A stretch of 64,000 nt of DNA, from the NCBI RefSeq assembly GCF_017696315.1, contig NZ_JAAORJ010000004.1, forward strand, positions 79,125 through 143,124. Direction: 5' to 3'. This document shows positions 29,579 through 56,455 of the stretch, one piece after another. The stretch is from Prochlorococcus marinus XMU1412. GTDB lineage: Bacteria > Cyanobacteriota > Cyanobacteriia > PCC-6307 > Cyanobiaceae. Under the pieces are notes generated by a model that did no database searches, was not told where the DNA came from, and saw nothing but the letters and a program-made list of their open reading frames with translations. Both the position numbers and the translations under genes were made by a program. The first letter of the stretch is position 1. Every line of letters starts with the position of its first letter.

Positions 29579-30907
29579 ATGATTAAAACAAATTTCTGGT
29601 TTAAAAATAGGCATCATCTAATTATAAATGCATTAGCTGACTCAATAATTTTCTTTATTTTATTTTTGTACTCAAAAAGCTTTGTATTTAAATTTCCTAT
29701 AACATTCTTTTTATTGTTATTTGTTTGGATATTTAACAGTTACGTCCTAGGAAGATACTCAACAAACTTTTTTAAAAAGAATTCATATACCTTTAAGAAT
29801 TTCCTGTCTACTTTAGGTGCTTTTTTTTTAGGGATATTTTTTTATTTATTATTTGATTGGATTTCAAATTCTTTTATTTTTGACAATATTTATAAATTAA
29901 ATTTAATAATCTATTCTGTAGTTTTCATAACTATTAGTGATTTAATTTTAATTTTATTAAAGTTAGTAATTTTCAAAAATAAAGTAGAAAAAAAATGGAT
30001 ACTTTTAGAAATAAATCAAGAGGAAAATAATGTATTCAAGAACGAAATCATAACAAACAGTAAATTCAAGATAGATTGCGCAAATATTGAAGAATTAAAA
30101 ACCATGAAATTGGTTAATTTTGAAGGAATAATTATAAATAACGCAGATTATGTTCCTAAAGAATTACTCAATGAGCTAAAAAAAATAAAGAGTTCCGGAA
30201 TTATGATTATTAATTTATTTACCTTCTATGAAAGATATTTTGAAAGAATCCCTCCAAACTTAATAAGCGATAAAGATATTATTTCTAGAGAGTTTTTTAT
30301 ACCAAGAAATTCCAATACAGTAAGACTTAAAAGAATTGGTGACATATTTTTAGCATCTTTTCTTTTTTTAATAACTTCACCCCTTATTTTATTAGCCGCT
30401 ATTCTTATAAAAATCGAAGATAATGGGCCTGTTTTTTATTCTCAAGAAAGAAATGGCTTGCTTGATATCCCTTACAAAATTTGGAAGTTAAGAACAATGA
30501 AGGTTAACTCAGAAAGTAAGGGTCCCCAATGGGCTTCAAAAAAAGACCCAAGAATTACATCAGTTGGGAAATATCTAAGAAAATCGAGATTAGACGAGTT
30601 ACCTCAATTATTATCAGTTATTAAGGGGGAAATGAGCTTAATTGGGCCTAGACCCGAAAGACCTGCTTTTGACAGTAAATTAGGATTAGAGATACCTCAC
30701 TATAATGTTAGAAAATGGATAAAACCCGGTCTAAGCGGCTGGGCTCAAGTTAATTATCCATATACTTCATCTATTGAAGATTCTGAAAAAAAATTAAGTT
30801 ATGACCTTTTTTATCTAAGAAATTTTTCTTTTTGGTTAGATTTATTAATTATGCTTAAAACCATCAAAATGGTTTTGCGCATAAAGGGATCAAGTCCTAG
30901 AAAATAA
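29579..30907 (+). CDS. polyprenyl glycosylphosphotransferase (WcaJ/WbaP-like)
   Basis: A 442-residue initiating sugar-phosphate transferase. N-terminal helices (about 1-130) and a Rossmann-like middle are followed by the C-terminal Bac_transf domain: KRIGDIFLASFLFLITSPLI (membrane re-entrant), FYSQERNGLLDIPYKIWKLR, SRLDELPQLLSVIKGEMSLI and GPRPERPAF. It would transfer a hexose-1-phosphate from a nucleotide sugar to undecaprenyl phosphate at the inner membrane, starting a glycan repeat. It is 9 bases after fcl. The WbpL-like gene further right is a second, unrelated initiator. Confidence 0.93.
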   Translation: MIKTNFWFKNRHHLIINALADSIIFFILFLYSKSFVFKFPITFFLLLFVWIFNSYVLGRYSTNFFKKNSYTFKNFLSTLGAFFLGIFFYLLFDWISNSFIFDNIYKLNLIIYSVVFITISDLILILLKLVIFKNKVEKKWILLEINQEENNVFKNEIITNSKFKIDCANIEELKTMKLVNFEGIIINNADYVPKELLNELKKIKSSGIMIINLFTFYERYFERIPPNLISDKDIISREFFIPRNSNTVRLKRIGDIFLASFLFLITSPLILLAAILIKIEDNGPVFYSQERNGLLDIPYKIWKLRTMKVNSESKGPQWASKKDPRITSVGKYLRKSRLDELPQLLSVIKGEMSLIGPRPERPAFDSKLGLEIPHYNVRKWIKPGLSGWAQVNYPYTSSIEDSEKKLSYDLFYLRNFSFWLDLLIMLKTIKMVLRIKGSSPRK

Positions 30908-30960: not shown

Positions 30961-32010
30961 ATGTCAAAGACTGCATTGATCACAGGAATTACAGGGCAGG
31001 ACGGGAGTTATCTAGCAGAGTTTCTTTTGAAAAAAAACTATATAGTTCATGGGTTAAAAAGAAGATCAAGCAATTTTAATACTCAAAGAATTGATCATAT
31101 TTTTCAGGATCCTCATGAAAATGGAAATAATTTTTTTCTGCATTATGGAGATTTAACAGATAGTACTAATTTAATAAGATTGATTAATGAAATAAAACCT
31201 GATGAAATTTATAATTTAGCTGCCCAGAGTCATGTTGCCGTTAGTTTTGAGACTCCGGAGTATACTGCTAATTGCGATGCATTGGGAACGTTAAGAATAT
31301 TAGAAGCAGTAAGAATTTTAAACTTAGTTGAAACTACAAAAATATATCAAGCAAGTACATCAGAATTATATGGCCTAATTCAAGAGTCTCCTCAAAGCGA
31401 ATCAACCCCCTTTTATCCAAGAAGTCCTTATGCAGTAGCAAAGTTATATGCCTATTGGATAACTGTTAATTATAGAGAGGCATACAAAATGTTTGCATGC
31501 AATGGTATTTTATTTAACCATGAATCACCTAGAAGGGGTGAAACTTTTGTCACTAGAAAAATAACTAGAGGCTTAGCTAGAATAGATGCGGGTTTAGATA
31601 ATTTAATTTTTGTAGGGAACTTAGACTCTTTAAGAGACTGGGGTCATGCTAAAGATTTCGTAGAAATGCAGTGGCTTATGCTTCAGCAAGATGAACCAGA
31701 AGATTATGTAATCGCAACTGGCAAACAAATCTCAGTAAGACAATTTATAAGCATCGCTAGCGAAGCAATTGGTTGGGGAGGGATACTCTGGGAAGGTAAG
31801 GGTTTAGATGAAATAGGTAGAAGAAAAGATAATGGGAAAGTTGTTATCAAAGTTGACTCGAGATATTTTAGGCCAACAGAAGTAGATAATCTATTAGGAA
31901 ATTCAGACAAAGCAAAGAAAAAATTAGGCTGGGAACCAAAAACCGACATAAAGCAGTTAATTTATGAAATGATACAAAATGATGTGAATGAAACTAAAAC
32001 TATTGTTTGA
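30961..32010 (+). CDS. gmd: GDP-mannose 4,6-dehydratase
   Basis: A 349-residue extended [22 protein letters not shown] and [17 protein letters not shown] are diagnostic of Gmd, with the catalytic Thr/Glu/Tyr/Lys region in ASTSELYGL and [26 protein letters not shown] completes the tetramer/NADP-binding region. It converts GDP-D-mannose to GDP-4-keto-6-deoxy-D-mannose, the shared precursor of GDP-L-fucose and GDP-L-colitose. Its substrate is supplied by manC at 43640. Confidence 0.97.
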
Positions 32011-32088: not shown

Positions 32089-33006
32089 TTGAATATCCTT
32101 ATTACAGGTTCAACTGGAATGGTTGGGAAAAACTTAATAAACCATAATAATGCAAAAGAATATAGTATTTCAGGCCCTAGTAGCAAAGAAATAAATCTTT
32201 TAGATAAATCTAAAATCTTGGATTGGCTAGCTAAAAATCCCACTGATCTAATAATCCATTGTGCTGGCTTAGTTGGTGGTATTCAAGCAAATATCAATAA
32301 TCAAAGTGGATTCCTATTTAATAATTTACAAATGGGAATTAACCTAATTGATGCTGCTTATAAATCAGGGATCAGAAATTTCATAAATCTTGGTAGTTCT
32401 TGCATTTACCCGAAAAATATTTCAAATGAGATTGATGAATCAATGCTACTTTCAGGAAAACTAGAGGAAACAAATGAGGGATATGCTATCGCAAAAATTT
32501 CAGTAGCAAAATATTGCCAATTCTTATCAGAAAAAGGATTTAATTATAAAACAATTATTCCATGCAATATCTACGGTAAGTATGATGATTTCAGTGAAAC
32601 AGGATCTCATATGATCCCAGGGGTAATAGCTAGAATGCATAAAGCTAAAATCAATAATGATAATTACATCGAAATATGGGGAGATGGGAAAGCGAGAAGA
32701 GAATTCATGTATGCAGAGGATCTAGCGGATGCTATTTGGTTCTGTGTCAAAAATATTAAGCAAATACCTAAATTTATAAATGTTGGGATTGGTGAGGATT
32801 TCTCAATAAAGGATTACTACCAAACTATTTCCGAAATAGTAGGATTTAAAGGTGAATTTAAGTTTAACAGAACAAAACCTGTAGGAATGAAAAGAAAATT
32901 AATTTGCTCAAAAATAATTAACCAATTAGGATGGATGCCAAAATTTTCCCTTAATAAAGGAATTTCATACACTTATAATTACTACACTAAGGAGATTCAA
33001 AATTGA
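32089..33006 (+). CDS. colC: GDP-L-colitose synthase-like SDR (ColC), second Fcl paralogue
   Basis: A 305-residue extended SDR from TTG. It begins NILITGSTGMVGKNLI, has NLGSSCIYPKN and a catalytic EGYAIAKISVAK block, then PCNIYGKYDDFSETGSHMIP and WGDGKARREFMYAED. It is clearly of the GDP-fucose-synthase family but diverged from the first copy. The four-base overlap with the ColD-like gene favours GDP-L-colitose synthase, which epimerises C5 and reduces C4 of GDP-4-keto-3,6-dideoxymannose. Without ColD context it would be called a second fcl. The assignment is part inference. Confidence 0.75.
   Translation: MNILITGSTGMVGKNLINHNNAKEYSISGPSSKEINLLDKSKILDWLAKNPTDLIIHCAGLVGGIQANINNQSGFLFNNLQMGINLIDAAYKSGIRNFINLGSSCIYPKNISNEIDESMLLSGKLEETNEGYAIAKISVAKYCQFLSEKGFNYKTIIPCNIYGKYDDFSETGSHMIPGVIARMHKAKINNDNYIEIWGDGKARREFMYAEDLADAIWFCVKNIKQIPKFINVGIGEDFSIKDYYQTISEIVGFKGEFKFNRTKPVGMKRKLICSKIINQLGWMPKFSLNKGISYTYNYYTKEIQN
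32989..32994 (+). promoter_or_regulatory. ribosome binding site supporting the colD TTG start
   Basis: AAGGAG ends eight bases before the TTG at 33003, near-ideal spacing, but 14 bases before the in-frame ATG at 33009. It favours the TTG, which overlaps the colC stop as TTGA. Confidence 0.55.
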
Positions 33007-34187
33007 TTATGTCTGCAGGCTTAAAATTAGCATCAAGTTCATGGGATGAAGAAGAAATAAAAGCAATGCAAGAAGTCATTAAATCTGGAGATTTTTCAAT
33101 GGGGAAGAAGGTCTTAGAATTTGAAAGGGAATTTGCTTCATATGTTAAATCAAAGTATTCAATAATGATAAATTCTGGTTCATCAGCGAATCTCTTAATG
33201 ATTGCTGCATTATTTTTTAAAAAAGATAATCCTCTTAAACCTGGCGATGAAGTAATAGTGCCTGCTGTTTCTTGGAGTACAACATATTATCCTCTAAGCC
33301 AATATGGATTAAAATTAAAATTTGTTGATATAGATAAAGAAACTCTTAATTATGACTTAAAAAAGCTGTCTGAAGCAATATCAGAAAACACAAGGTTGTT
33401 AATGATAGTAAATATTCTTGGCAACCCCAATAATTTTTCAACTATAAATGAAATTTTAAAAGACAGAAAAATAATAATAGTGGAAGATAATTGCGAATCA
33501 CTTGGAGCAAAGTTCAAAAATAAATTTACAGGTACTTTTGGAATTATGGGTTCATACAGCTCATTTTTTTCTCATCATATATCCACTATGGAGGGAGGAT
33601 TAATAACTACTGATGATATTGAGCTTTACCATATATTATTATCAATAAGATCCCACGGCTGGACGAGAAATTTACCAAAAGAGAATAAAATAAGCGCTTT
33701 AAAAAGTGATAATGAATTTGAAGAATCATTTAAATTTATCTTGCCAGGTTATAATCTAAGACCATTAGAAATCTCCGCTGCTGTTGGTTTAAAACAATTA
33801 ATAAAATTACCAAATTTAATAAAAGAGAGAAGAAAAAATGCTGAATTCATGAAAGAAATAATTTCTTCAAGTAGAATCTTTTCAATGCAAAAAGAAATAG
33901 GAGAAAGTAGTTGGTTTGGTTTTGCAATAATATTAAAAAATAACAAAGATATTTCTAGAGAAAAAGTTTTTAAATATTTAGATCTAATGAAAATAGAATA
34001 TAGACCAGTAGTTACTGGTAATTTCCTGAATCAGCCTGTTTGTAAATATATTGATATTATCGACAATGGGATAATGATAAATGCCAACTATATTGATAAA
34101 AATGCTTTTTATATAGGTAATCACCATTACGACATATCAAATTCATTAAAAGAATTAAAATTTATAGAAAAAGAAATTTTAGAATAA
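33003..34187 (+). CDS. colD: GDP-4-keto-6-deoxy-D-mannose 3-dehydratase (ColD)
   Basis: A 394-residue PLP enzyme of the DegT/aspartate aminotransferase fold. At the usual Schiff-base lysine the sequence reads SFFSHHISTMEGG, so histidine replaces lysine, the hallmark of ColD. Several further blocks match what I recall of Escherichia coli ColD: LMIAALFF, VPAVSWSTTYYPL, EDNCESLGA, IRSHGWTRNLPK and GESSWFGF. ColD uses PMP and glutamate to remove the C3 hydroxyl of GDP-4-keto-6-deoxymannose. gmd, colC and colD lie consecutively. The TTG start has a good ribosome binding site; ATG at 33009 is the alternative. Confidence 0.9.
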   Translation: MIMSAGLKLASSSWDEEEIKAMQEVIKSGDFSMGKKVLEFEREFASYVKSKYSIMINSGSSANLLMIAALFFKKDNPLKPGDEVIVPAVSWSTTYYPLSQYGLKLKFVDIDKETLNYDLKKLSEAISENTRLLMIVNILGNPNNFSTINEILKDRKIIIVEDNCESLGAKFKNKFTGTFGIMGSYSSFFSHHISTMEGGLITTDDIELYHILLSIRSHGWTRNLPKENKISALKSDNEFEESFKFILPGYNLRPLEISAAVGLKQLIKLPNLIKERRKNAEFMKEIISSSRIFSMQKEIGESSWFGFAIILKNNKDISREKVFKYLDLMKIEYRPVVTGNFLNQPVCKYIDIIDNGIMINANYIDKNAFYIGNHHYDISNSLKELKFIEKEILE

Positions 34188-34984
34188 TGAAAAATAATTT
34201 TCATTGCCTTAAAGAGGTTGATGTATTATTACCAATTCACTATTCAAATGAAGAATTTTTAATAGAGTCTATAAATTCTCTTTTAAATCAAACATTAAAG
34301 CCAAATATTATATGTTTATTAAATGGGATGGATAGAAATTCTAATATTTATTATGAAAATATACTTACCAATCTTTCTGTAAATAAAATAATAATATGCC
34401 CTGTTAAAGGCATCCCAAATGCTTTAAATTATGGGATAAACTACTGTGAAGGTAAATATATCGCAAGACAGGACGATGACGATTTTTCAAATCCAGAAAG
34501 ACTATTAAAGCAGAAGATTTTCTTAGAAAACAATAATGTTGATATTGTTGGAACTAATATAAATTTGATTGATAAATATGGAAATATAATAGGTTTTAGG
34601 GAATATCCAACCTCTAATAAAAAGTGTAAGGAAACTCTAGCTTATAAAAGCTGCTTTTGCCATCCCTCAATTATGGTTAAAAAAAGTTTTTTTCTAAAAA
34701 ATAAATACCCATTAATTAGTGGCGAAGATTACGCATTATGGCTTAAATCATATAGAAATTCAAGTTATAGTAATTATCCCGAATTTTTATACAATTATAG
34801 AATTCATCCAGGGCAAGTTTCAAAAACTAATATTAATTATTTATTTTTAAAAGAATCAAAAAAGATTATAAATAAAACATCCGATAAGAAAGAAAAAATT
34901 AGATTAATAATTTACTTAATTTTAACTATTTTAAAGTGCTTAATAAAAAGAAGAAAAATTAATTTCAATACCGAATTAAGTTAA
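34187..34984 (+). CDS. GT2 family glycosyltransferase
   Basis: A 265-residue GT-A enzyme. The nucleotide-binding start is VDVLLPIHYSNEEFL, the donor loop KGIPNALNYGINYCEGKYIA leads to the metal-binding acidic run RQDDDDFSNPERL, and the acceptor-side motifs HPSIMVKK and GEDYALWL follow. These are typical of inverting GT2 enzymes making polysaccharide repeats. Its ATG overlaps the colD stop by one base (TAATG), so it is translated in series. A hydrophobic C-terminal stretch may dock to the membrane. The sugar is unknown. Confidence 0.9.
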   Translation: MKNNFHCLKEVDVLLPIHYSNEEFLIESINSLLNQTLKPNIICLLNGMDRNSNIYYENILTNLSVNKIIICPVKGIPNALNYGINYCEGKYIARQDDDDFSNPERLLKQKIFLENNNVDIVGTNINLIDKYGNIIGFREYPTSNKKCKETLAYKSCFCHPSIMVKKSFFLKNKYPLISGEDYALWLKSYRNSSYSNYPEFLYNYRIHPGQVSKTNINYLFLKESKKIINKTSDKKEKIRLIIYLILTILKCLIKRRKINFNTELS

Positions 34985-35853
34985 TGAAATTCAAAAAAAA
35001 TTTAGCAAGTATTATTATGCCAAGTTGTCATAAATTAACCAGCAAAAACAAAATTTGTTATGAAAATAGTATTAAGCAAAATTATGGGAATGTAGAGTTC
35101 TTAATTTTTGTAAATGGAATTGATAAAAAAAAATATTATAAATTATTAGACTTTCTAGAAAATAAAAATATCTATAATCATAAAATAAAATCGCTTTATT
35201 CAAAATCAAGAGTCGCCATAGGTAAAGCTAGGAGAGAATTACTCAAAATATCTAATGGTGAATATATTATTTTCTTGGATTCCGATGATATACCTAGTAA
35301 AAGTATAATTAAAGATAAAGTATTAATCTCAAAATTAAATAATTCAAATATTATTTTTTCTAATGCTAAGTTGCATAAAAATAGTCCATCAAAAAAAAGA
35401 AAAATTAATAACAGAAATTATTTTAGATATTTGATTAGGTTTAAAAAAATATTTAACCATCAGATATTTGAGGGTATTAATCTTTTTCCTAATTCTGGAA
35501 CTCTAATAAAAAAAACTAGAGAAATTTCAAAATTATTGGAATTTTATCCTATTTGCAATCATGAAGACTTTATTTTTTATAAAAAATTAATCGCTATAAA
35601 TAAAGAATTTACCATATCTAATAAATATCTTATTTCTTACAATGTAGGCAATAGTTCAACTAGTAATAAACTTAAATCAAGAATCTGGCATTTTAATTGT
35701 CTAATAAAAGAATTGAATAGAAATTTCATTCAGGCGATAATATCCATTTTTATAGGTTCTTTAATAATCATAATTTTAAGAATTCTATATATTTTTTTTA
35801 ATCCTAATAATATAAAAAAAGATATTCATAAAAAAATAATTTTAAAAAAATGA
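34984..35853 (+). CDS. GT2 family glycosyltransferase, C-terminal membrane anchor
   Basis: A 289-residue GT-A enzyme. ASIIMPSCHKLTSKNK opens the fold, then SRVAIGKARRELLKISNGEYIIFLDSDDIPS (in part) carries the DxD-like LDSDD. HEDFIFYKKL is the catalytic-base region. Residues about 245-270 (AIISIFIGSLIIIILRILYI) form a likely membrane anchor. It joins the upstream and downstream genes by TAATG and ATGA overlaps. Strong Lys/Asn/Ile bias is visible. Donor and acceptor are unknown. Confidence 0.85.
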   Translation: MKFKKNLASIIMPSCHKLTSKNKICYENSIKQNYGNVEFLIFVNGIDKKKYYKLLDFLENKNIYNHKIKSLYSKSRVAIGKARRELLKISNGEYIIFLDSDDIPSKSIIKDKVLISKLNNSNIIFSNAKLHKNSPSKKRKINNRNYFRYLIRFKKIFNHQIFEGINLFPNSGTLIKKTREISKLLEFYPICNHEDFIFYKKLIAINKEFTISNKYLISYNVGNSSTSNKLKSRIWHFNCLIKELNRNFIQAIISIFIGSLIIIILRILYIFFNPNNIKKDIHKKIILKK

Positions 35854-37517
35854 ACAATACACTTAAATTGATAAAGAAGATTATATTTATATCTAATATG
35901 GATAAAGAATCTATAGGTTTTAAAAACATTTTGATTTATGGATTTTTATCGGGATTTGCTGAGCTACTTATTTTTGCAAGTAGTATTTATATAATTAGTA
36001 TTATTTCAAATGAAAGGGAACTAATATATAATCCATTCATTATTTTATTATTTATAATCCTTGGTTCACTCCTTAGAATATACTCTAGCAAAAAAATAAT
36101 AAATTACTCTCATTCTATTGGAGCAAAAATAGGCAAATTTATTTTAAAAGATAGATTAAACAATCACAAACTTTATAATTATTCTGAAAATGTCGATGAT
36201 AATATTGTTGTATCAATTGTGAATTATACTCAAATATTTGTATCCTCATTACAAAATATATCCTTAGCTATTGCTGCATTACTAGGAATTATTTCTATTA
36301 TTATTATTTTATCAATATCTTATTATGTAAATTCTTTGATAATAATTATTTCTATTGCAGCCTTATATATATTAATCAATAAATATAATTCTATAAAGTT
36401 AGCAAAAATATCAAGAATAATTGCCAAAAATCAAAGAACAGTTCTCACTAAAACAAGAGAACCATTAGAAATGGATGAGGAAATTTTTATAACTAATTCC
36501 TCAGATTTTTATGAAAATAAATTATATATGCACCAATTAGATTTAATGAATAATCTAGGAATTTCATCTTTTATTTCATCTCTGCCAAAACTGGTAATTG
36601 AATTTTTTATACTTTCATTTATTGCAATTTTAATGATAATTAATGGAAACTCGCCAAATAATATTTCATATATAAATAATATAATGATAATTTTGATAAG
36701 TTGCTTGAGGATTTTACCTTATGCACAATCAATATATGCTGCACAAACAAGTCTTAAAATTTTTAATGATTCAATTTTAGTATTGTACAAATATTTAACA
36801 AATGATTTTGGTAATCCTAATAATAATAATTCAAAATCAAATCAAGCTCATCTTAATTACGATATTAAAATTTTAGATAAATTTAAAAATTTTGGTAAAT
36901 TAATTATTACTTACAAAATAAAAAATAAAAACAATATAATTCCTATTAATATTAGATCTAATCAAATATTAGGAATTCGTGGGGTTTCTGGATGTGGGAA
37001 ATCAACTCTAATAAGATCTATGATAGGTTTAAGAAATATTTATAAATTAGAAGCAGTTATTAAGAAAGATTTTTTTAAAAATAAAGAAATCTATAAAATT
37101 AAAGATTATATTAAATGTGGATTTATTCCTCAAAAATCATATATAACAACTGGAACAATTAGAGAAAATATAAATCAGAATCAGAACTTTTTTGATTCTG
37201 ATATTATTGAGTTATTAGTGAGATTCAATTTATCTAAAAATAAAGAAGAGGGCTTAAAATTTTTAAACAAGCATATTGGAGAAGATTCAAAAATGAATCT
37301 CAGTGGAGGAGAAATACAGAGAATATCATTCATAAGAGCATTATTAAGAAGACCGAAACTATTATTTATCGATGAAGCTACATCTGCATTAGATGAGAAA
37401 AATGCAAAAATTATTATTGAATCATTACTTGAATATACTGAAAGTGTTATTATGATTTTCCATTCAAGTTATTTAGAATCATACTGCAATCAAATTTTAG
37501 ATTTCCAAAAAAAATAA
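35850..37517 (+). CDS. ABC transporter, fused permease and ATPase (PglK-like candidate flippase)
   Basis: A 555-residue half-transporter. Helices occupy about residues 25-310; the ATPase starts near 340. Walker A is GVSGCGKST, Q-loop GFIPQKS, signature LSGGEIQR, Walker B LLFIDEATSALD and H-loop MIFHSS, all intact. Domain order and size match exporters such as PglK, which flips lipid-linked oligosaccharides. No Wzx gene is visible in the window, so it may be the flippase for this glycan; that is inference. It overlaps the preceding gene by four bases (ATGA). Confidence 0.85.
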   Translation: MNNTLKLIKKIIFISNMDKESIGFKNILIYGFLSGFAELLIFASSIYIISIISNERELIYNPFIILLFIILGSLLRIYSSKKIINYSHSIGAKIGKFILKDRLNNHKLYNYSENVDDNIVVSIVNYTQIFVSSLQNISLAIAALLGIISIIIILSISYYVNSLIIIISIAALYILINKYNSIKLAKISRIIAKNQRTVLTKTREPLEMDEEIFITNSSDFYENKLYMHQLDLMNNLGISSFISSLPKLVIEFFILSFIAILMIINGNSPNNISYINNIMIILISCLRILPYAQSIYAAQTSLKIFNDSILVLYKYLTNDFGNPNNNNSKSNQAHLNYDIKILDKFKNFGKLIITYKIKNKNNIIPINIRSNQILGIRGVSGCGKSTLIRSMIGLRNIYKLEAVIKKDFFKNKEIYKIKDYIKCGFIPQKSYITTGTIRENINQNQNFFDSDIIELLVRFNLSKNKEEGLKFLNKHIGEDSKMNLSGGEIQRISFIRALLRRPKLLFIDEATSALDEKNAKIIIESLLEYTESVIMIFHSSYLESYCNQILDFQKK

Positions 37518-37524
37518 ACTTTTT

Positions 37525-39285
37525 ATGTGTGGATATATTTTTCTAAAATCAAATATTAAAAAAGATCATAATTCTATAAAAAAAAGCATTCCTAAAATTG
37601 AGAATAGGGGACCAGATCAAACAAATATTATTCATTTACAAAATAAAACATTAATTCATACTCGACTTTCAATAGTCGATATAAACAATGGATCACAACC
37701 AATGCAAGCTTCAAAAGATGATATTAATTATTGGATACTTTTCAATGGAGAAATATATAATCATATTGAATTAAAAAATAAACTAAAGAGAAAATATAAA
37801 TTCAAAACTAATTCAGATACTGAGGTTCTTTTAGCTTCATATATAGTATGGGGTGAAAAATGTTTAGAGAAAATAATTGGCATGTATAGCTTTGTTATTG
37901 TTAGTAATGATGAAGAGATATTCTGCGCAAGAGATTTAACTGGGCAAAAACCTCTATTCTACTCTTTGAATGAAGATAAAATTGTAATAAGTTCAATTCC
38001 TATAAGATTTGATCAACAAAAAGATATTTCTGAAGAATCAATAGCAGATTTCCTTATAAATGGATACTTAACATCAAATAGAACAATCCTTAAAGAAGTA
38101 TTTAGTCTGGAACCTGGTTTTTCATTAAAAATAAAAAACAATCAAATAAAAAAATTTCAATTTTGGAAATTAGAAGATTATGTTAAGAATAAAAATAATA
38201 ATTCTCAAGATGAATTACTAAGAAAAACAGATCATCTCCTCAATAAAATAGTAAAGAACTATAAAAACCAAGCGGATGTCCCAATAGCACTATTATTAAG
38301 CGGCGGGATAGATTCATCTCTTTTATTAAGATATTTCCAAAAAAATAATATCCTCCCTGATTGCTATACATTGGATACTGAAGATTCAAAAAGTGAATTA
38401 GAAGAATCTAAAAAATATATAAATCCTATTAAACATAAGATAATAAAATCTAAGAAAATTAATGCGGAATTTTTTGAATATGTTTATGGCAATATTTTTA
38501 GTCAACCATTTTCTGATAGCTCAGCATTAAATACATCAATACTTATTAAAGAATTATCCAAAAAATATAAATGTGCAATAGGTGGAGATGGAGCTGATGA
38601 AATATTTGCTGGTTATCATGATCGTATAATTCATTTAGGTGGTAATATGATTTTCAATATAAGTTTTTACAGAAGAATAATAAGTCAAATAATTTCAAGA
38701 ATTAAAAATAAACATTTGATAAAAAAAATATTTTTTTCAGGATATAGATATCCAATATTTAATTTAAATATAATTAATGATTTACTTTCAACAAATTTTA
38801 AAAGTAAAGACTTATTTAGTTACGAGTCTGAAAATTTTAAATTTAATTCTAAAGAAAAAATTCTAATTGAAGATTTCTTAACCTATTTACCGAATAATAT
38901 AAATATTAAACTAGATGAGATTTCTATGCATTATGGTGTCGAATTAAGATCGCCCTTTCAAGATAGAAGGATAATAGAATATGCATTAAGTATTCCAGCC
39001 AAAAATAAATTTAATAAAAAATTATCTAAAATATTATTGAGAAAAATTCATTCAAATTATCTAGAAGATAATTCATACAATTCAAAAAAAGGTTTTGGAT
39101 TAAATTATGAAAACTTCCTTAAAAGAAAGGATATGCAAAATCTTTATAAAAAGTATGTAGAAAAAAACTCAAAAATATCTAAGTTTATAAATAATAAAAA
39201 TATAGATAAAATATTGAATAAAAATTATTCCGCTAAAAGATGGAATTATCTTTGTCTTGCAATATGGATTGAAAAAAATACATGA
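37525..39285 (+). CDS. asnB: asparagine synthase-like glutamine amidotransferase
   Basis: A 586-residue AsnB-family protein. The N-terminal nucleophile is Cys2 (MCGYIFLKS), with ENRGPDQT and FNGEIYNH of the glutaminase domain. The synthetase domain has the PP-loop LLLSGGIDSSLLLRYF and IGGDGADEIFAGY. Its place in a glycosyltransferase operon suggests amidation of a sugar acid rather than free aspartate, as in WbpS-type enzymes; this is inference. The next gene overlaps its stop by ATGA. A second AsnB-like gene lies at 60607. Confidence 0.88.
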   Translation: MCGYIFLKSNIKKDHNSIKKSIPKIENRGPDQTNIIHLQNKTLIHTRLSIVDINNGSQPMQASKDDINYWILFNGEIYNHIELKNKLKRKYKFKTNSDTEVLLASYIVWGEKCLEKIIGMYSFVIVSNDEEIFCARDLTGQKPLFYSLNEDKIVISSIPIRFDQQKDISEESIADFLINGYLTSNRTILKEVFSLEPGFSLKIKNNQIKKFQFWKLEDYVKNKNNNSQDELLRKTDHLLNKIVKNYKNQADVPIALLLSGGIDSSLLLRYFQKNNILPDCYTLDTEDSKSELEESKKYINPIKHKIIKSKKINAEFFEYVYGNIFSQPFSDSSALNTSILIKELSKKYKCAIGGDGADEIFAGYHDRIIHLGGNMIFNISFYRRIISQIISRIKNKHLIKKIFFSGYRYPIFNLNIINDLLSTNFKSKDLFSYESENFKFNSKEKILIEDFLTYLPNNINIKLDEISMHYGVELRSPFQDRRIIEYALSIPAKNKFNKKLSKILLRKIHSNYLEDNSYNSKKGFGLNYENFLKRKDMQNLYKKYVEKNSKISKFINNKNIDKILNKNYSAKRWNYLCLAIWIEKNT

Positions 39286-40082
39286 TAAGTATACTATTGC
39301 CAATCTTCAACAATGAAGAAACAATAAAAATAGTTTTAAATTCAATAATTAAAAACGTCAATAAGAATGATGAAATAATAATAATTGATGATTGCTCCAC
39401 TGATAATTCATATTCAATTATTAGATCTATTATTGAAAAATATAAATTACTTAAGATTATTATTATGAAAAATAAAAAGCAAATGGGTATCTCCTATAGT
39501 CTTAACAAGGGCATAAAATCAGCTTCGAAAAAGTATATTGCCAGAATTGATGGCGACGATATTAATTTCAAAAATAGATTTAAATTTCAATTAAGAGTTC
39601 TCAAAGAAAACCCCAGAATTGATCTTTTGTCATGCGCTAAAAAAGATTATAAAAACCTGAAAAGTTTAGATCTTAGTGAATTGAAAATAAATCTTAAAAA
39701 TAAATATAATTTAAAAAAATTATCAATTAAAGATTTAGCTTATCAAAATTTGATTATACATCCATCAATAATCTGTAAGACTGATATTTTAAAGAATTTC
39801 ACATATGATATGAGTTTTGTTAAATCTCAAGATTATAACCTTTGGTTAGATATGGTTTTCGAGGGAGTCAATATTTATTTATGTAATACAGCTGTTATCT
39901 GCTACTTAAATAAAAGAGATAATCTCTCAAAAATAAAAACTCAATTATTAAATTCTATAAAAGCGAGAATTAAACATATGAAATTAAATAAACCCATAGT
40001 TAATTTTGTATTGTTAATGGGATCGATTAAGGATACACTTAGTATTGCAAAAATACTAATCTCAAATCGTAATGGAATATGA
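39282..40082 (+). CDS. GT2 family glycosyltransferase
   Basis: A 266-residue GT-A enzyme. It starts MISILLPIFNNEETIKIVLN and continues to IIIIDDCSTDNSYSI (nucleotide-binding Asp). KGIKSASKKYIARIDGDD holds the metal-binding motif, HPSIICKTD and SQDYNLWLDM follow in family order. It resembles the 34187 enzyme more than the other members, though I have not measured identity. It starts inside the asnB stop (ATGA) and overlaps the following gene by 11 bases. Confidence 0.9.
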   Translation: MISILLPIFNNEETIKIVLNSIIKNVNKNDEIIIIDDCSTDNSYSIIRSIIEKYKLLKIIIMKNKKQMGISYSLNKGIKSASKKYIARIDGDDINFKNRFKFQLRVLKENPRIDLLSCAKKDYKNLKSLDLSELKINLKNKYNLKKLSIKDLAYQNLIIHPSIICKTDILKNFTYDMSFVKSQDYNLWLDMVFEGVNIYLCNTAVICYLNKRDNLSKIKTQLLNSIKARIKHMKLNKPIVNFVLLMGSIKDTLSIAKILISNRNGI

Positions 40083-40872
40083 TATTTGGTATATTTTTTG
40101 TTACTCAGAAGATCAATACATAAGTGCCTTAAAAAGGCTAAAGATTTCTATTGGGAGTATTAACAGTAATTCAAAAATAAAAATATTAACATGGCATAAA
40201 AATTTAAATAAAGATATTATTGATCTAAAGAAAATTAGAAAAATTGACTTATTTGAAACCAAAAAAATAGAATTTTCTAGAGCATTTTGTATTAATCTAA
40301 TTTCTAAGTTAATAGATGTAGAAGATAAATATTTCTACTTAGCCGATACTGATTTATTTTTCCATCCCGAATATTTTAATTGGTTAGATTTTATATGCAA
40401 AAAAATGAACTACAAAAAAAATGATCTTAGAGTGATAACTAATAATTTTAATCTAAGGCCTAATAAAAAATATAAATTTATTCCAAACAAATTATTTAAT
40501 TTATTATCAGGTATTTTCCCAAATTTATACAATTGGGAAACTCCAAATACATTAAATGAAATTCTTAATATTAATTATATGAATTCTGGATTCGCCCACG
40601 GATGTGGTCTCATTCCAATTGATCCATTAAAAAAAATTGGAGGATATAACGAAGAAATTATTGGGTACGGACCTGAAGATGATCTTTTTAATAAACGTTT
40701 ATCTTTTTTTTCAAGAGTTTATTATCATATAGGAAGTTTAAGAAGCTCAACTTTTCATATTTATCATCCTAAGCTGAATTATCAAAACAAAAAGAAGAAT
40801 TGGAATTATTGGAATTTTATAATAAAAGATATTAATAAAAATCGCATTCATTCAGATTATATTATTCGATAA
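40072..40872 (+). CDS. galactosyltransferase-like enzyme with GT7 C-domain
   Basis: A 266-residue GT-A protein. DTDLFFHPEYF is the metal-binding DxD. The C-terminal block has GFAHGCGLIPIDPLKKIGG, then YNEEIIGYGPEDDLFNKRL, which is the Glyco_transf_7C pattern (GxxGEDxD region) of beta-4-galactosyltransferase-type enzymes and of some bacterial relatives. Galactosyl or N-acetylgalactosaminyl transfer is plausible but specificity is not proven. It overlaps the GT2 stop by 11 bases, so its ATG lies in the upstream gene. Confidence 0.72.
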   Translation: MEYDIWYIFCYSEDQYISALKRLKISIGSINSNSKIKILTWHKNLNKDIIDLKKIRKIDLFETKKIEFSRAFCINLISKLIDVEDKYFYLADTDLFFHPEYFNWLDFICKKMNYKKNDLRVITNNFNLRPNKKYKFIPNKLFNLLSGIFPNLYNWETPNTLNEILNINYMNSGFAHGCGLIPIDPLKKIGGYNEEIIGYGPEDDLFNKRLSFFSRVYYHIGSLRSSTFHIYHPKLNYQNKKKNWNYWNFIIKDINKNRIHSDYIIR

Positions 40873-40873
40873 A

Positions 40874-41842
40874 ATGAACGTATTTATTTGGACAGAATGT
40901 CTTGGGTGCCCCTTAATTGGTAAAGTCTCAATTAATTCGTTCTTAAAATTTCATGATTCACATAAATTAAATGTATTCGTTTTCAAAGAAGATATTAAAT
41001 CTTTACCTAAGAACAAGAGAATTATTTATCATATAATTAAGAAAAATTCTTTTTTCAAATCATTAAAATATAGATTTTTATATAACTTTAAAAAAAAATA
41101 TACGTTAGATGCAAATAATCTCAAAACATATTTCAAAAAAGGGCATAAAGGAACTGCTGAATTATGGGCTTATATTTTGAAAAAATTTAGCTCTTATGAT
41201 GCAATGATTCATTTTGATAGTGATGTAATTTTCTGTAATTCAGCTATAGATCTATTAATAAAAGAATCAAATAATTATGATCTAATTGGACAATGTAGAC
41301 CATATAAAAATAATTCAAATAATGATTATGTTAGAGACTTACCAGATCTTGTTGCAACATGCTGCTTTTTATTTAAACCATCATTAGCTCCTTCTATTAA
41401 AAGAATAAAACAAAAAGATTTAAGGTTAGCTATACAAGGAAGAAGAAGATTAACTGGTAAAAAACTTCTTGATTTTTTCGACCAAATATCACATGAAATA
41501 TTATTGAATAATGGGAAAATAAAATTTATTTCTGTAGACAAATTTGGAGGTACTTCCAAGGAAGGCTCAAGAAAAAGTAACTTTAGCAATTTAAATGACA
41601 TGAATACAAAGTATAAAATGGATATTGGAAGTATGCTAGTCCATTTCTCTGCAGTTGGATCAGGCTATAATATATGGAAAAATAAAGCTCGATCGGGCTC
41701 AAGAACTTATGACACTTATGCTTTGGATAGATTCTATTTATTTATGAAATGCTTTTACCCAAAAGAGGAACTTAATACAAAAATAAGAAGTGAATATAAA
41801 CCATTAATAGATTATTTCCATAAGACTTTCATCAATTTATAA
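40874..41842 (+). CDS. putative GT-A glycosyltransferase, family unassigned
   Basis: A 322-residue soluble protein. The start MNVFIWTECLGCPLIGKV and MIHFDSDVIFCNSAIDLL with a DSD metal motif are like GT-A enzymes that act on nucleotide sugars. A polar loop (about 155-205) is rich in Arg and Lys (QGRRRLTGKK). SMLVHFSAVGSGYNIW may be a substrate-side element with His. I do not recognise a CAZy family. The TAATG overlap with the GT11 gene ties it to fucosyl/colitosyl transfer in the same transcript. Confidence 0.6.
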   Translation: MNVFIWTECLGCPLIGKVSINSFLKFHDSHKLNVFVFKEDIKSLPKNKRIIYHIIKKNSFFKSLKYRFLYNFKKKYTLDANNLKTYFKKGHKGTAELWAYILKKFSSYDAMIHFDSDVIFCNSAIDLLIKESNNYDLIGQCRPYKNNSNNDYVRDLPDLVATCCFLFKPSLAPSIKRIKQKDLRLAIQGRRRLTGKKLLDFFDQISHEILLNNGKIKFISVDKFGGTSKEGSRKSNFSNLNDMNTKYKMDIGSMLVHFSAVGSGYNIWKNKARSGSRTYDTYALDRFYLFMKCFYPKEELNTKIRSEYKPLIDYFHKTFINL

Positions 41843-42741
41843 TGAGTAAAATTTACATTTCTCTTACTGGAGGTTTGGGTAATCAACTTTATATTGCTGC
41901 TACTGGAATTGCAATATCTAAAATAATAAATCGAGAAATAATTTTTGATATCAGTACCTACAAAAGATATAAACTCCATAAATTACTTATACATAACATA
42001 ATAAGTTCATTAAGTTTAGAAAAAAATAATTTCATATATAGAGGATATCCATTTTTAAGTAAAGATAGAAAATTTTTAGTCAATTTAAAAGAAAGATCTC
42101 CTAGCTATGATTCAAGTATCTTAAAAAGAATTAAAAATAGATTACCTTTCTTTGATTATTTCTTAAGTGGATATTTTCAAAGTCTAAGTTATTTTTCTCA
42201 TATTATTCCCGAATTAAGAAGTGAAATAATAAAAAACCTTTTAAATATTGATGATGAACTTAATAATTCAAAAATAATTGGTATTCTTGAAAACACCTTA
42301 ACCATTCATATAAGAAGAAAAGATAAGATGTTAACTATAAATAAATCTATTTATGGAGTAGTTAATGAAGAAGGTTTCAATCAAATAATTTCCTCTGTAA
42401 TCAATAAAAATGATTATAAATTTTTACTGATAGTTGGAGATGATCCAAAATTCAATAATTATTTTAAAAATCAAATAAAATTAAAAATAAATGTTATTAC
42501 AAGTGATTTTTTAAGCAAAAGAATTTCTGCTTTTAATGATTTTTTCTATATGATCAATAGCAAAGGATTGATTCTTAATAATTCTAGTTTTTCTCTTTGG
42601 GCAGGTTATCTTTCTAATTCAAATAATATTTATTATCCTGATTTGTTATTTCCAATGCCCAAACATTATTCAATAAAGGATTTTTCAATAGAGGATTTGA
42701 TTATGCCACATTGGGAAAGCTATCCAAACCAATATTTATAA
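41842..42741 (+). CDS. alpha-1,2-fucosyltransferase family protein (GT11)
   Basis: A 299-residue GT-B enzyme. GGLGNQLYIAATGIAISK is the GT11 N-terminal motif, TIHIRRKDK is the HxRRxD motif that binds the GDP part, and NSSFSLWAGYLS is the third. These features define alpha-1,2-fucosyltransferases. GDP-fucose is made by manC, gmd and fcl in the same island; GDP-colitose (3-deoxyfucose) is a possible alternative donor since some relatives use it. The ATG overlaps the previous stop by one base (TAATG). Confidence 0.9.
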   Translation: MSKIYISLTGGLGNQLYIAATGIAISKIINREIIFDISTYKRYKLHKLLIHNIISSLSLEKNNFIYRGYPFLSKDRKFLVNLKERSPSYDSSILKRIKNRLPFFDYFLSGYFQSLSYFSHIIPELRSEIIKNLLNIDDELNNSKIIGILENTLTIHIRRKDKMLTINKSIYGVVNEEGFNQIISSVINKNDYKFLLIVGDDPKFNNYFKNQIKLKINVITSDFLSKRISAFNDFFYMINSKGLILNNSSFSLWAGYLSNSNNIYYPDLLFPMPKHYSIKDFSIEDLIMPHWESYPNQYL

Positions 42742-43595
42742 TGAAATATTTTTTATCTACAGATAATTTTAATCTTAATAAAGAACTAATAAGGTTTAAT
42801 AAAAGCAAATTCATAACTAAAGAAGAATTGAAAAAATATAATCTAGGTGAAGTAGTTTTAATAAGCATTGACAAACCAAGATTTAAAGATTTATTCCTTC
42901 CATTTAATAAAAAAATATTTTTTAGACTTGAATATTTACCTGTAAGAAAATTTCCTTTTGACATTTACTTTTATAGATTATTTTTTGATTTTATATTTGA
43001 ATGGGATTCTTATTTTATTAAAAAATCATACTCATTTTTACCTTTTTTCCCTCCAAGGATTGGGATGATTCATGAAAGTGAGATTGTAAAGGAGAAAATA
43101 AATTTAAATTATTTTTTTCTAAACCAATTTGAAAAATCACATTTAATAAGCACCATTGTAAGTAACAAACGAAAGCTATTATGGCAAAAAAAAAGAATTG
43201 AACTAATTGAATTTCTTACAAATGATATAAAGCAAATAGAACGATATGGGAGAGGGTTTAAAAAAGTTCTTGACAAATCAGAAGTATTAATACCTTTTAA
43301 GTATCATATTGCAATTGAAAATTGCGTAAATGGACCTAGTGAAAAATTATGGGACCCATTACTTTGCAATTGTATAGTTTTCTATGGTGGAAATATAGAT
43401 TTAGTTTATCCAAAAATAAGAAAAGCAATAATTCAAATTCCAATTTTTGATAAATATAAATCAAAGGAAATAATATCTACTGAATTAAAATCCTCAAGTG
43501 TTTTTAATTCAGTAACCAAAGAAGATTGGATTGAAATCAAGACATCTATAAAAAGGTTGTATACCTTTGAAAGTCAACATATTTTTAAAGAATAG
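42741..43595 (+). CDS. alpha-1,3-fucosyltransferase-like protein (GT10)
   Basis: A 284-residue protein. The C-terminal half carries the GT10 donor motif PFKYHIAIENCVNGPSEKLW, then DPLLCNCIVFYGG, matching the F-x-F-x-x-ENS...EK pattern of fucosyltransferases. The N-terminal half resembles GT10 acceptor domains only loosely. I chose ATG at 42741, which overlaps the GT11 stop as TAATG; a longer start at 42711 is possible but would run into the upstream frame. A nine-A run at 43186-43194 is in frame. Confidence 0.85.
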   Translation: MKYFLSTDNFNLNKELIRFNKSKFITKEELKKYNLGEVVLISIDKPRFKDLFLPFNKKIFFRLEYLPVRKFPFDIYFYRLFFDFIFEWDSYFIKKSYSFLPFFPPRIGMIHESEIVKEKINLNYFFLNQFEKSHLISTIVSNKRKLLWQKKRIELIEFLTNDIKQIERYGRGFKKVLDKSEVLIPFKYHIAIENCVNGPSEKLWDPLLCNCIVFYGGNIDLVYPKIRKAIIQIPIFDKYKSKEIISTELKSSSVFNSVTKEDWIEIKTSIKRLYTFESQHIFKE

Positions 43596-43639: not shown

Positions 43640-45076
43640 TTACTTTCTACCATAATTATCTTCAAATCTGATAATGTCATCCTCTCCAAGATAATTTCCG
43701 CTTTGCACTTCTATAATTACTAAAACTTTATCCGTTTTATTAGAGAGTCTATGTTTTGAGCCTAAAGGAATAAAAGTACTTTGATTTTCTGTTAAGGTTT
43801 GTACTTTATCATCAATCTCAACAAATGCTTCACCAGATACTACTATCCAATGTTCAGCTCTATAATTATGTTTCTGCAAAGATAAAGAACATTTAGGATT
43901 GACTTGTATTTTTTTAACTTGCCAATTACTTCCTTTTTCTATTGATTGATAATTTCCCCATGGTCTAAAACCTTTATTATGAAAATTAGCCTCTTGGATA
44001 TTTTGTTTTTTTAAATTAGAAACAATTTTTTTTACATCTTGATCACTTTCTCTATTACCAACAAATAGCGCATCATTTGTTTCAACTACAACTAAATCTT
44101 TTATCCCCAAAGCCACAATTAAACGGTTACTACTTAATAAAAAACAATTTTCTGTTTTGTCTAAAATTACCTTACCAAATTTAGAATTTCCATTTTTATC
44201 TTTTTTTGATTCCTTCCATAATGAATTCCAACTGCCAACATCACTCCAGCCCACTTCCATAGGGAAAACCATACCTAATTTTGTTTTTTCCATAACTGCT
44301 ATATCAAAAGATATATTTGGACAATTTAAAAAAGGTTCTATATCTATTCTCGAAAAATTCATATCTTTTTGACATCCTTTGAATGAATTGATGCAGGCTT
44401 TATATACATCTGGTCTAAATTTTTTAATCTCTTTTATTATTACGCTTGCTTTAGATAAAAAAATCCCACTATTCCATAAAAATCTACCAGTAGAAATCAT
44501 TTCTCTTGCTTTATCCTCATCAGGTTTTTCTACGAATCTTAAAATTGGGATCCCACTATTCGGTAAAGCTTCAAATTGATCTTCTGTTTCAATATAGCCA
44601 TATCCAATCTCAGGGGAAAATGGTGGGACTCCAAAAGTAACAATCGATCCATTTTCACTATATTGAATAGCTTTCTCAATAATTTCTCTAAACTTTTCAT
44701 TATTTTTGATAAAGTGATCCGCTGAAAGGATCAATAGATTAGGATCTTGCCCATCTTGTAATGCTCTAAGTGCTGCTATTGTTATGGCAGGGGCTGTATT
44801 TCTCCCAAAAGGTTCTAAAAAAATAGATAAAGGTTCTATATTTTTCTCTCTCATTTGTTCGGCGACTATAAATCTATGCTCTTCATTGCAAATTATTAAT
44901 GGTTTAATTAAGTTCTTTAGGCCATTTAATCTTTCATAAGTTTCTTGAATAAATGTATTCTTAGAATTTTCATTAAGAGCTAGAAACTGTTTCGGATAAC
45001 TTGACCTTGATAATGGCCATAATCTCGTTCCGCTTCCTCCACATAAAATCACAGGTAATATTTTATTTGTATTCAT
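43640..45076 (-). CDS. manC: mannose-1-phosphate guanylyltransferase / mannose-6-phosphate isomerase
   Basis: A 478-residue bifunctional type II enzyme. The N-terminal nucleotidyltransferase has VILCGGSGTRLWPLSRSSYP and FVEKPDEDKAREMI. The C-terminal cupin isomerase has RPWGNYQSIEKGSNWQVK and QKHNYRAEHWIV with the metal-binding histidines, then IPLGSKHRLSN. It supplies GDP-mannose to gmd, and hence GDP-fucose and GDP-colitose. It is encoded convergently with the glycosyltransferase operon. Confidence 0.97.
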   Translation of the reverse strand: MNTNKILPVILCGGSGTRLWPLSRSSYPKQFLALNENSKNTFIQETYERLNGLKNLIKPLIICNEEHRFIVAEQMREKNIEPLSIFLEPFGRNTAPAITIAALRALQDGQDPNLLILSADHFIKNNEKFREIIEKAIQYSENGSIVTFGVPPFSPEIGYGYIETEDQFEALPNSGIPILRFVEKPDEDKAREMISTGRFLWNSGIFLSKASVIIKEIKKFRPDVYKACINSFKGCQKDMNFSRIDIEPFLNCPNISFDIAVMEKTKLGMVFPMEVGWSDVGSWNSLWKESKKDKNGNSKFGKVILDKTENCFLLSSNRLIVALGIKDLVVVETNDALFVGNRESDQDVKKIVSNLKKQNIQEANFHNKGFRPWGNYQSIEKGSNWQVKKIQVNPKCSLSLQKHNYRAEHWIVVSGEAFVEIDDKVQTLTENQSTFIPLGSKHRLSNKTDKVLVIIEVQSGNYLGEDDIIRFEDNYGRK

Positions 45077-45187: not shown

Positions 45188-46240
45188 CTAATACCCTTTT
45201 TGATTTAATTTCATCCATTTCCAACCATCTCGACACATATCCTCGAGATTTTTTTCTGGTTTCCATTTTAGAATATTCTTTACTAATGAATTATCTGCTA
45301 CAACTATGGCGGCATCACCCTTTCTTCTTTTACTAAATTGAAAAGGGACATTTATTTTATTTACTATTTCAAAAGTTTTTATTAAGTCTAAAACGCTTGT
45401 ACCAATTCCTGTACCTAAATTAAGATTTAAAATTTTTGGAGGATTATTTATCAAATACTCCAAACCATAAAAATGACCATTGGCTAAATCCATTACATGA
45501 ATATAATCTCTAACTCCTGTTCCATCTCTAGTTGGCCAGTTTTTTCCAAATATTTTAAAATATTCTATTTCCCCTAAGGCAACTTGCATAATTAATGGGA
45601 AAATATTATTTGGTATCCCATTAGGTACTTCTCCAAGCAATCCAGATGGATGCGCCCCAATAGGATTAAAATAACGTAGATTGATTATTTTCCATTTGTC
45701 CGGAGAACTTTCATATAAATTAGCTAAAAGATGCTCAATTGTTAATTTTGTTAATCCATAAGGATTAATTGGATCTAATTTTTGATCCTCATTAATTAGA
45801 TCGATTTTTGATGATCCATATACTGATGCACTACTACTAAATACTATGGTCCTACATTCAAATAAATTCATAACCTTTAAGAGATTTATTGTGCTGACTA
45901 AATTAAAATCCCAATACTTTAGAGGTTCATTGATTGATTGATTGATTGACTTTAAACCCGCAAAATGAATAACAGCTGTTATTGGCTTACCAATTTTATT
46001 TTGTTTAAGAAAAATTCCTCTTATAAAACTTTCGTCCCTTAAATCGCCTTTGAAGAAACTAAGTTTATTTTTCATTCGTGGATATTTGATATTAATAATT
46101 TCATTTATTCTTTCTAAAGCCTTAATAGAACTATTAATAAGAGAGTCAACTATTAAAATCTCATAACCTTTTTCGATTAATAATAAACTAGTATGACTTC
46201 CTATAAAACCTAGGCCGCCAGTAACTAAAATTCTTTGCAT
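45188..46240 (-). CDS. galE: UDP-glucose 4-epimerase
   Basis: A 350-residue extended SDR. VTGGLGFIGSHTSLLLIEKG is the NAD site; catalytic Ser and Tyr-x-x-x-Lys are in FSSSASVYG and NPYGLTKLTIEHL; NLRYFNPIGAHPSG completes the GalE pattern. It interconverts UDP-glucose and UDP-galactose, a possible donor for the GT7C-like enzyme. An (ATTG)5 tract in frame codes SINQSIN. It is divergent from the UDP-xylose synthase gene with 142 bases between. Confidence 0.95.
   Translation of the reverse strand: MQRILVTGGLGFIGSHTSLLLIEKGYEILIVDSLINSSIKALERINEIINIKYPRMKNKLSFFKGDLRDESFIRGIFLKQNKIGKPITAVIHFAGLKSINQSINEPLKYWDFNLVSTINLLKVMNLFECRTIVFSSSASVYGSSKIDLINEDQKLDPINPYGLTKLTIEHLLANLYESSPDKWKIINLRYFNPIGAHPSGLLGEVPNGIPNNIFPLIMQVALGEIEYFKIFGKNWPTRDGTGVRDYIHVMDLANGHFYGLEYLINNPPKILNLNLGTGIGTSVLDLIKTFEIVNKINVPFQFSKRRKGDAAIVVADNSLVKNILKWKPEKNLEDMCRDGWKWMKLNQKGY
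45929..45948 (+). repeat. tetranucleotide repeat (ATTG)5 within galE
   Basis: Five tandem ATTG units are seen on the plus strand inside the galE reading frame (coding CAAT on the gene strand). Gain or loss of one unit would shift the frame. Five copies is short for a contingency locus. Confidence 0.8.
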
Positions 46241-56446: not shown

Positions 56447-56455
56447 TTAATTTAT

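Follow-up and report, generated by a model that had tools for sequence, protein, structure and literature searches.

A GT11 and GT10-like glycosyltransferase pair beside predicted colitose genes in Prochlorococcus marinus XMU1412

Introduction

Lewis-type ends are put on the lipopolysaccharide of Helicobacter pylori by two enzymes, FucT of glycosyltransferase family 10 (GT10) and FutC of family 11 (GT11), as described in PMC4202792. In this study we analyzed a stretch of 64,000 nucleotides of Prochlorococcus marinus XMU1412 (contig NZ_JAAORJ010000004.1, positions 79,125 to 143,124), hereafter the window, in which a GT11 gene is directly overlapped by a divergent GT10-like gene. The pair closes a run of surface-sugar genes that also holds genes predicted to make guanosine diphosphate (GDP)-L-colitose, the activated form of 3-deoxy-L-fucose.

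O-antigens with colitose are known best from enteric bacteria, from Vibrio and from Aeromonas. Their sugar donor is formed from the 4-keto sugar produced by Gmd, from which ColD removes O-3 and which ColC then epimerizes and reduces. The polysaccharide of V. cholerae O139 is described as consisting of galactose, N-acetylglucosamine and two colitoses (PMC8386440), and Aeromonas trota shares this tetrasaccharide (PMC3210612). In Escherichia coli O55, WbgN has been experimentally shown to be a GT11 colitosyltransferase that also accepts GDP-fucose (PMC11987014, PMC12723683), and in the literature searched the term colitosyltransferase pointed to this enzyme. GDP-colitose and GDP-fucose were each used by WbgN and by human FUT2 (PMC11987014), and the acceptors given for WbgN are type-1 chains (PMC12723683). 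Within the set of papers that we searched, none joined Prochlorococcus and colitose.

Results

The GT11 and GT10-like genes

The gene at 41842..42741 (forward strand, as are all genes below unless stated otherwise) encodes a GT11 protein of the alpha-1,2-fucosyl/colitosyltransferase type, in agreement with the original prediction of an alpha-1,2-fucosyltransferase-family gene. Its product matched PF01531 at 51.5 bits against a cut-off of 23.9 (E 1.1e-13), and the translation contained GGLGNQL, HIRRKD, GDD and NSSFSLWAGYL, which we take in part from general knowledge to be marks of the family. The second of these has the form HxRRxD, described as an important GT11 motif (PMC4202792). A search of NCBIfam gave no match, and a search of the PDB gave three weak ones, none a glycosyltransferase. 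Membership in GT11 does not fix the linkage, because a GT11 enzyme of Helicobacter hepaticus makes an alpha-1,3 linkage (PMC4202792).

For the next gene (42741..43595), the most probable start is the ATG at 42741 (..TAATG..), which has one base in common with the GT11 stop codon; this start replaced a TTG at 42711. Taken alone, its product matched no Pfam family at E ≤ 1 and no NCBIfam model, and a separate comparison with PF00852 at E ≤ 0.1 was also negative. In the PDB it had 11 matches, all weak (E 0.19 at best) and none to a fucosyltransferase. The relatives of the protein nevertheless establish its homology to GT10. Of 21 relatives detected in addition to its own copy, 15 were aligned with the window protein (alignment A1), and six fragments or near-duplicates were left out; all 15 matched PF00852 at E ≤ 0.1 (best 1.4e-13). 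The A1 profile found five PDB sequences at E ≤ 1, every one named fucosyltransferase (9s6a, 2.9e-19; 2nzw, 3.6e-17; 5zoi; 7yro; FUT9 8d0o, 1.5e-11) and all presumably of GT10. A larger alignment (A2) joined the window protein to 68 of the best 80 of at least 510 confirmed GT10 loci in genomes; five loci with open reading frames (ORFs) longer than 480 aa were omitted, and seven others by choice (three short, four longer). Its profile likewise found only fucosyltransferase chains at E ≤ 1, again five. Of 386 genomes searched across the phylum, 64 had a match at E ≤ 0.01, the own genome included and some of them by chance.

Eleven columns of A2 were invariant across its 69 rows, the window protein included, and E64, E193, N194, E201 and K202 were among them. 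Three donor-site residues of GT10 are present: N194, E201 and K202 aligned, through the A2 profile, with the H. pylori FucT residues Asn240, Glu249 and Lys250. We take Asn240 and Lys250 to be donor-site residues of that enzyme. A donor-site role is described for Glu249, and Glu95 is proposed as the catalytic base (PMC4202792); the invariant E64 is probably the counterpart of Glu95.

An AlphaFold2 model of the protein had a predicted local distance difference test score (pLDDT) of 71.8, mostly above 90 in the C-terminal domain and mostly 40-63 in the N-terminal domain. Searched with this model, Foldseek placed seven chains of alpha1,3-fucosyltransferases on top (2nzw/2nzx/2nzy and 5zoi, which we take to be from H. 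pylori; E 3e-4 to 2e-3). In VIA, alpha1,3-fucosyltransferases also came first, with Z 12.8 to 11.3 (12.8 for FUT9/FUT11), and other GT-B enzymes followed from Z 11.1 down. Judged by the profiles, the product is GT10-like, kin to the family by descent and outside Pfam's own cut-off; we use this label rather than GT10 because the protein itself fails PF00852. The GT10 gene of the original prediction, overlapping GT11, stands in this sense: family profiles recognized GT11 directly and the GT10-like protein only through its relatives, 15 of 15.

A phage origin was considered and set aside after a close-relative search of viral contigs gave no relative. Six phage records held distant GT10-like genes, 38-39% identical over about one third of the query; these are distant and partial and therefore give no sign of direct transfer. 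The GT10-like genes of cyanophage S-T4 (L172, 3632-4435) and of a marine virus record (L173, 7641-8438) adjoin epimerase-like genes. The S-T4 protein, annotated as hypothetical, matched PF00852 at 44.1 bits; the marine virus record has no annotation.

The short donor loop

With the Glu of EN as its first residue and the Lys of EK as its last, the donor loop has 10 residues in the window protein (ENCVNGPSEK) and the identical length in its homologue (ENCDSGPSEK) in a second genome of the genus, G598. The loop was 12 residues long in 78 of the best 80 loci, the other two being unreadable, and also in H. pylori FucT (E239-K250) and two phage proteins. Among the 15 A1 relatives it was 12 in six and 13 in nine; among 15 PF00852 loci of the same family of bacteria, 12 could be read, nine with 12 residues and three with 13. 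The residue before T/S-EK was W, F or Y in 59 of the 69 A2 rows. The window protein thus departs from the usual GT10 loop of 12-13 residues, which usually has an aromatic residue before T/S-EK. Because the loop of the G598 homologue has the same length of 10, the deletion is a conserved trait of the branch and not recent decay. The short loop as a general mark of colitose was ruled out; the ColD-linked GT10 enzymes of Agrobacterium and Dechloromonas have 12 residues.

Donor pathways

From Fcl (28568) to the end of the GT10-like gene (43595), 14 genes follow one another on one strand with intergenic gaps of -11 to +78 bases, and gmd, ColC and ColD belong to the same tightly packed run as the GT11-GT10 pair. 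ColD, GDP-4-keto-6-deoxy-D-mannose 3-dehydratase (33003..34187), matched the E. coli enzyme (2gms) at 493 bits (E 3.7e-147) and has, by motif alignment, histidine in place of the lysine that binds pyridoxal phosphate (SHH). In the 20 records listed out of 86, its DNA shares about 67% identity with E. coli colD across 64-81% of the gene. ColC, GDP-L-colitose synthase (32089..33006), overlaps ColD by 4 bases, as in E. coli O55. A tree of 20 rows joined it to the E. coli O55 and O111 genes that are linked to ColD (support 99/97, at most 56% identity), and this group fell within a clade made up of nine ColD-linked enzymes (93/83); the tree carried warnings for the long row L099 and for the unusual letter make-up of the 32089 protein. 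Fcl, GDP-L-fucose synthase (28568..29569), stood outside this clade among the Fcl rows, next to two Fcl enzymes of the same family (97/99).

Gmd, GDP-mannose 4,6-dehydratase (30961..32010), matched TIGR01472 at 586 bits (cut-off 415), and ManC, for GDP-mannose supply (43640..45076, reverse strand), TIGR01479 at 627.9 bits (cut-off 372.95). The original prediction spoke of GDP-fucose genes; Gmd and ManC are confirmed, and of two Fcl-like genes the tree places only the one at 28568 with GDP-fucose synthases, the one at 32089, next to ColD, being ColC. GDP-colitose is predicted from the identification of ColD and from the place of ColC beside its ColD-linked E. coli counterparts, and we predict that both GDP-colitose and GDP-fucose are made in this strain.

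Conservation and co-occurrence

G598 carried the same gene order as the window, ColD-GT2-GT2-GT2-GT7C-ORF-GT11-GT10, at 35-58% identity: 58% for ColD, 48, 39 and 39% for the GT2 proteins, 51% for the GT7C-like protein, 40% for the ORF, 35-37% for GT11 and 51-52% for the full-length GT10-like protein, which likewise lacked a PF00852 match. GT11 and GT10 overlapped in both genomes, by 1 base in the window and as ATGA in G598. The ABC-type and asparagine-synthetase-like genes were not between the corresponding GT2 genes in G598; a homologue of the glycosylphosphotransferase, truncated where the contig ends, adjoined ColD (53% over 234 aa), and ColC and Gmd lay on another contig. When Fcl was used as a query in G598 and three other genomes, G100, G073 and G169, only the ColC locus and matches of 25-27% identity were found; the query was positive in the own genome, G040 and G639. 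The completeness of G598, G100, G073 and G169 was 73%, 84%, 94% and 99%, respectively.

Among 200 genomes of the genus (own included), ColD at 54% identity or more was found only in the own genome and G598, and the other matches at E ≤ 1e-60 were 36-45% identical. Among the 199 others, a single genome had such a ColD and a single genome matched the window GT10 at E ≤ 1e-5, and this was one and the same genome (Fisher p 0.005). In the family (251 genomes, own included), ColD at this level occurred in the own genome, G169, G073 and G100. ColC adjoined it in the latter three, and Gmd adjoined ColC in G073 and G100 and was about 11 kb away in G169. Of the 250 others, this ColD was present in three and a protein matching the window GT10 at E ≤ 0.001 in two, with both together in G100 (p 0.024). 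A general link between ColD and GT10 was not seen in the family; a link was confined to the GT10 branch of the window itself. For ColD and GT11, the Fisher value was 0.029 as searched and 0.001 with G073 counted. The G073 protein beside ColD has GGFGNQLFQ and a score with a partly self-trained profile but no PF01531 match, and its assignment to GT11 was left uncertain. Another genome of the family, G171, had PF00852 and PF01531 matches about 1.5 kb apart (contig 7, 45176-47392).

The best 80 GT10 loci had GT11 in the surrounding DNA in 13 cases and ColD (55-58%) nearby in two, both also with GT11 (Fisher 0.025). Eight of the 13 were laid out gene by gene, and GT10 adjoined GT11 in half of these (L046, L055, L058, L073). 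Clusters with gmd, ColC and ColD together with GT10 and GT11 were found in Agrobacterium sp. AGB01 and Dechloromonas hortensis. In these two distant bacteria, the GT10 of the colitose cluster is fused to an FkbM methyltransferase (L071, 7695-9383; L075, 7695-9392). In L046 (2122-9523), gmd is accompanied by an Fcl/ColC-like gene that branches immediately outside the ColD-linked clade, and a GT10 gene and a GT11 gene come next, side by side; no ColD was found in the surrounding DNA.

Other genes of the window

The gene run includes a polyprenyl glycosylphosphotransferase, the initiating sugar transferase (29579..30907, by eye), and, after ColD, GT2 glycosyltransferases at 34187..34984 and 34984..35853, an ABC transporter or flippase-like gene (35850..37517, by eye), an asparagine-synthetase-like amidotransferase (37525..39285, by eye) and a third GT2 gene (39282..40082). 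The three GT2 genes were assigned by Pfam search. The gene at 40072..40872 is where the original prediction placed a GT7C-type galactosyltransferase, but its match to PF02709 (21.7 bits) falls below the cut-off of 23; we tentatively label it GT7C-like, a candidate beta-galactosyl/hexosaminyl transferase. The ORF at 40874..41842 matched no family above cut-off in the Pfam and NCBIfam searches, and a single-sequence AlphaFold2 model of it was unusable (pLDDT 35.8).

The host genome is 1.73 Mb in size. The window, in which pcb-like and flavodoxin-like genes in keeping with Prochlorococcus were recognized by eye, has a G+C content of 28.8% overall and 26.8% from 25 kb on. The transferase cassette (34187-43595), at 20-26%, is AT-richer than gmd (34%) and ColC (31%). 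On the reverse strand lie a GalE-like epimerase, possibly for supply of uridine diphosphate-galactose (45188..46240, by eye), and a second DegT-type protein (48955-50157). The latter is nearest to RfbH/CDP-4-keto-6-deoxyglucose-3-dehydrase (3bcx, 205 bits) and has histidine at the lysine site, without the RfbH cysteines in the aligned stretch. Genes like those for CDP (cytidine diphosphate)-glucose synthesis, a 4,6-dehydratase and a paratose 2-epimerase were also seen by eye on that strand (55394-58320); together with the RfbH-like gene, they suggest a second, CDP-linked pathway to a 3,6-dideoxyhexose.

Discussion

A Lewis-type double decoration, with one residue on galactose and one on N-acetylglucosamine, would be the natural reading of a GT11-GT10 pair. 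We suggest, with a probability of roughly 0.55, that the pair in the window makes a colitose, or a mixed colitose/fucose, version of it. The two enzymes would be the last transferases of a cassette for an O-antigen or a similar surface polysaccharide, in which the GT2 and GT7C-like enzymes would first build an oligosaccharide. GT11 would then add an alpha-1,2-linked residue of the L-fucose type to galactose, and the GT10-like enzyme an alpha-1,3/4-linked residue to the adjacent N-acetylglucosamine, giving a branched end like Lewis b/y. GDP-L-colitose would serve at least one of them as donor, via ManC, Gmd, ColD and ColC, and three of the four genes on this route lie in the same run as the transferases. 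GDP-fucose from the separate Fcl may be the donor for the other enzyme, or an alternative donor. We infer a role of the product at the cell surface, perhaps in recognition by phages or grazers.

The original prediction put fucose first and named colitose as an alternative. The families and their tandem arrangement agree with the Lewis-type set that it described; we give colitose at least the same weight as fucose, because of ColD, ColC, the G598 cassette in which no Fcl was detected, and WbgN. In a more specific form of the proposal, the GT10-like protein would itself be a colitosyltransferase of a short-loop marine-cyanobacterial branch, and with GT11 would make a colitose mimic of Lewis b/y on an open-ocean cell surface. 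This form we offer tentatively, as a possibility.

Several observations weigh against the colitose or mixed Lewis-type decoration. Fcl at 28568 lies in the same gene run, and therefore GDP-fucose is also available here. G598 is only 73% complete, and a gap may account for the lack of Fcl there. The co-occurrence tests rest on very small counts, and of the GT10-like relative in G100 only an N-terminal fragment is present, where a contig ends. GT10 proteins matching PF00852 were present in 14 of the 251 family genomes and never in the own genome, G169, G073 or G100. Among the 13 GT10 loci that also have a GT11, three (L079, L086, L096) had Gmd and a true Fcl, and two had ColD. The G598 counterpart of the GT7C-like protein reached only 17.3 bits with PF02709, and the window protein also stays under the cut-off. 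The GT11 phylogeny was uninformative as a guide to the donor, and the ColD-linked GT11 proteins did not form one clade; it was a quick tree of 45 rows with many long branches, from which one match below 50 bits and a locus duplicating the window were excluded. The donor cannot be named from sequence, because this tree does not set colitose-linked enzymes apart from others and GT11 enzymes take both donors in vitro.

The strongest competitor is an ordinary pair of fucosyltransferases, both using GDP-fucose from Gmd and the Fcl at 28568, with colitose added elsewhere in the repeat by a GT2 enzyme. Besides the true Fcl in the gene run, it draws on the classical role of GT10 and GT11 as fucosyltransferases (described so in PMC4202792) and on the 11 of 13 GT10+GT11 loci without ColD in the surrounding stretch, including the three with Gmd and Fcl. 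However, G598 retained the cassette and ColC without a detectable Fcl, G100 and G169 had ColD and a GT11 match with no Fcl found, and WbgN is described as a GT11 enzyme able to use colitose (PMC11987014, PMC12723683). We consider this explanation rather unlikely.

Split donors, with one enzyme taking GDP-fucose and the other GDP-colitose to give a mixed epitope, are a special case of the colitose or mixed decoration that we prefer. In favour of such a division, this genome has both donor pathways; G598, however, at its 73% completeness, retains both enzymes with apparently the colitose branch only, and we hold strictly split donors to be quite improbable. Decay of the GT10-like protein, or a different function for it, is less probable still: neither it nor its G598 homologue matches PF00852, its loop has 10 residues against 12 in the 78 readable of the best 80 loci and its N-terminal domain is poorly modelled (pLDDT mostly 40-63), but the G598 homologue is full-length, 52% identical, with an equally short loop and the same neighbours, and the window protein keeps all 11 A2-invariant columns.

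All components of the colitose or mixed Lewis-type system that we favour are of known kinds; what seems new to us is that a marine picocyanobacterium combines them, together with the GT10 branch marked by a short loop. If a GT10 enzyme does use colitose, a much-studied family would gain a further natural donor. With a defined GT11-GT10 module in a surface-sugar island, studies of recognition by cyanophages or grazers would also have a concrete glycan to work with.

Compared with known systems, the locus is like the O-antigen cluster of E. coli O55 in that a GT11 gene (annotated as alpha-1,2-fucosyltransferase), ManC, ColC and ColD lie in one stretch, and the O55 ColC is nearest to the window ColC among the 19 other rows of the tree. 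However, the O55 GT11, which we take to be WbgN, is only 27.6% identical to the window GT11 (over 272 aa), and no GT10 is annotated in its 18.9-kb stretch, which starts inside manC and stops before gmd. The polysaccharides of V. cholerae O139 and A. trota have the sugar composition predicted here, with colitose linked 1->2 to galactose and 1->4 to N-acetylglucosamine; we liken them by composition, not by transferase genes. The Lewis system of H. pylori, which is not known to use any donor sugar but fucose, shares with the window a pair of GT10-type and GT11 enzymes, chains taken to be from H. pylori being the best fold matches of the GT10-like model, and differs in the FucT loop of 12 residues against 10. 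The clusters of Agrobacterium sp. AGB01 and D. hortensis have gmd, ColC, ColD, GT10 and GT11 together, as here; unlike here, their GT10 is fused to an FkbM domain, has a 12-residue loop and does not adjoin GT11.

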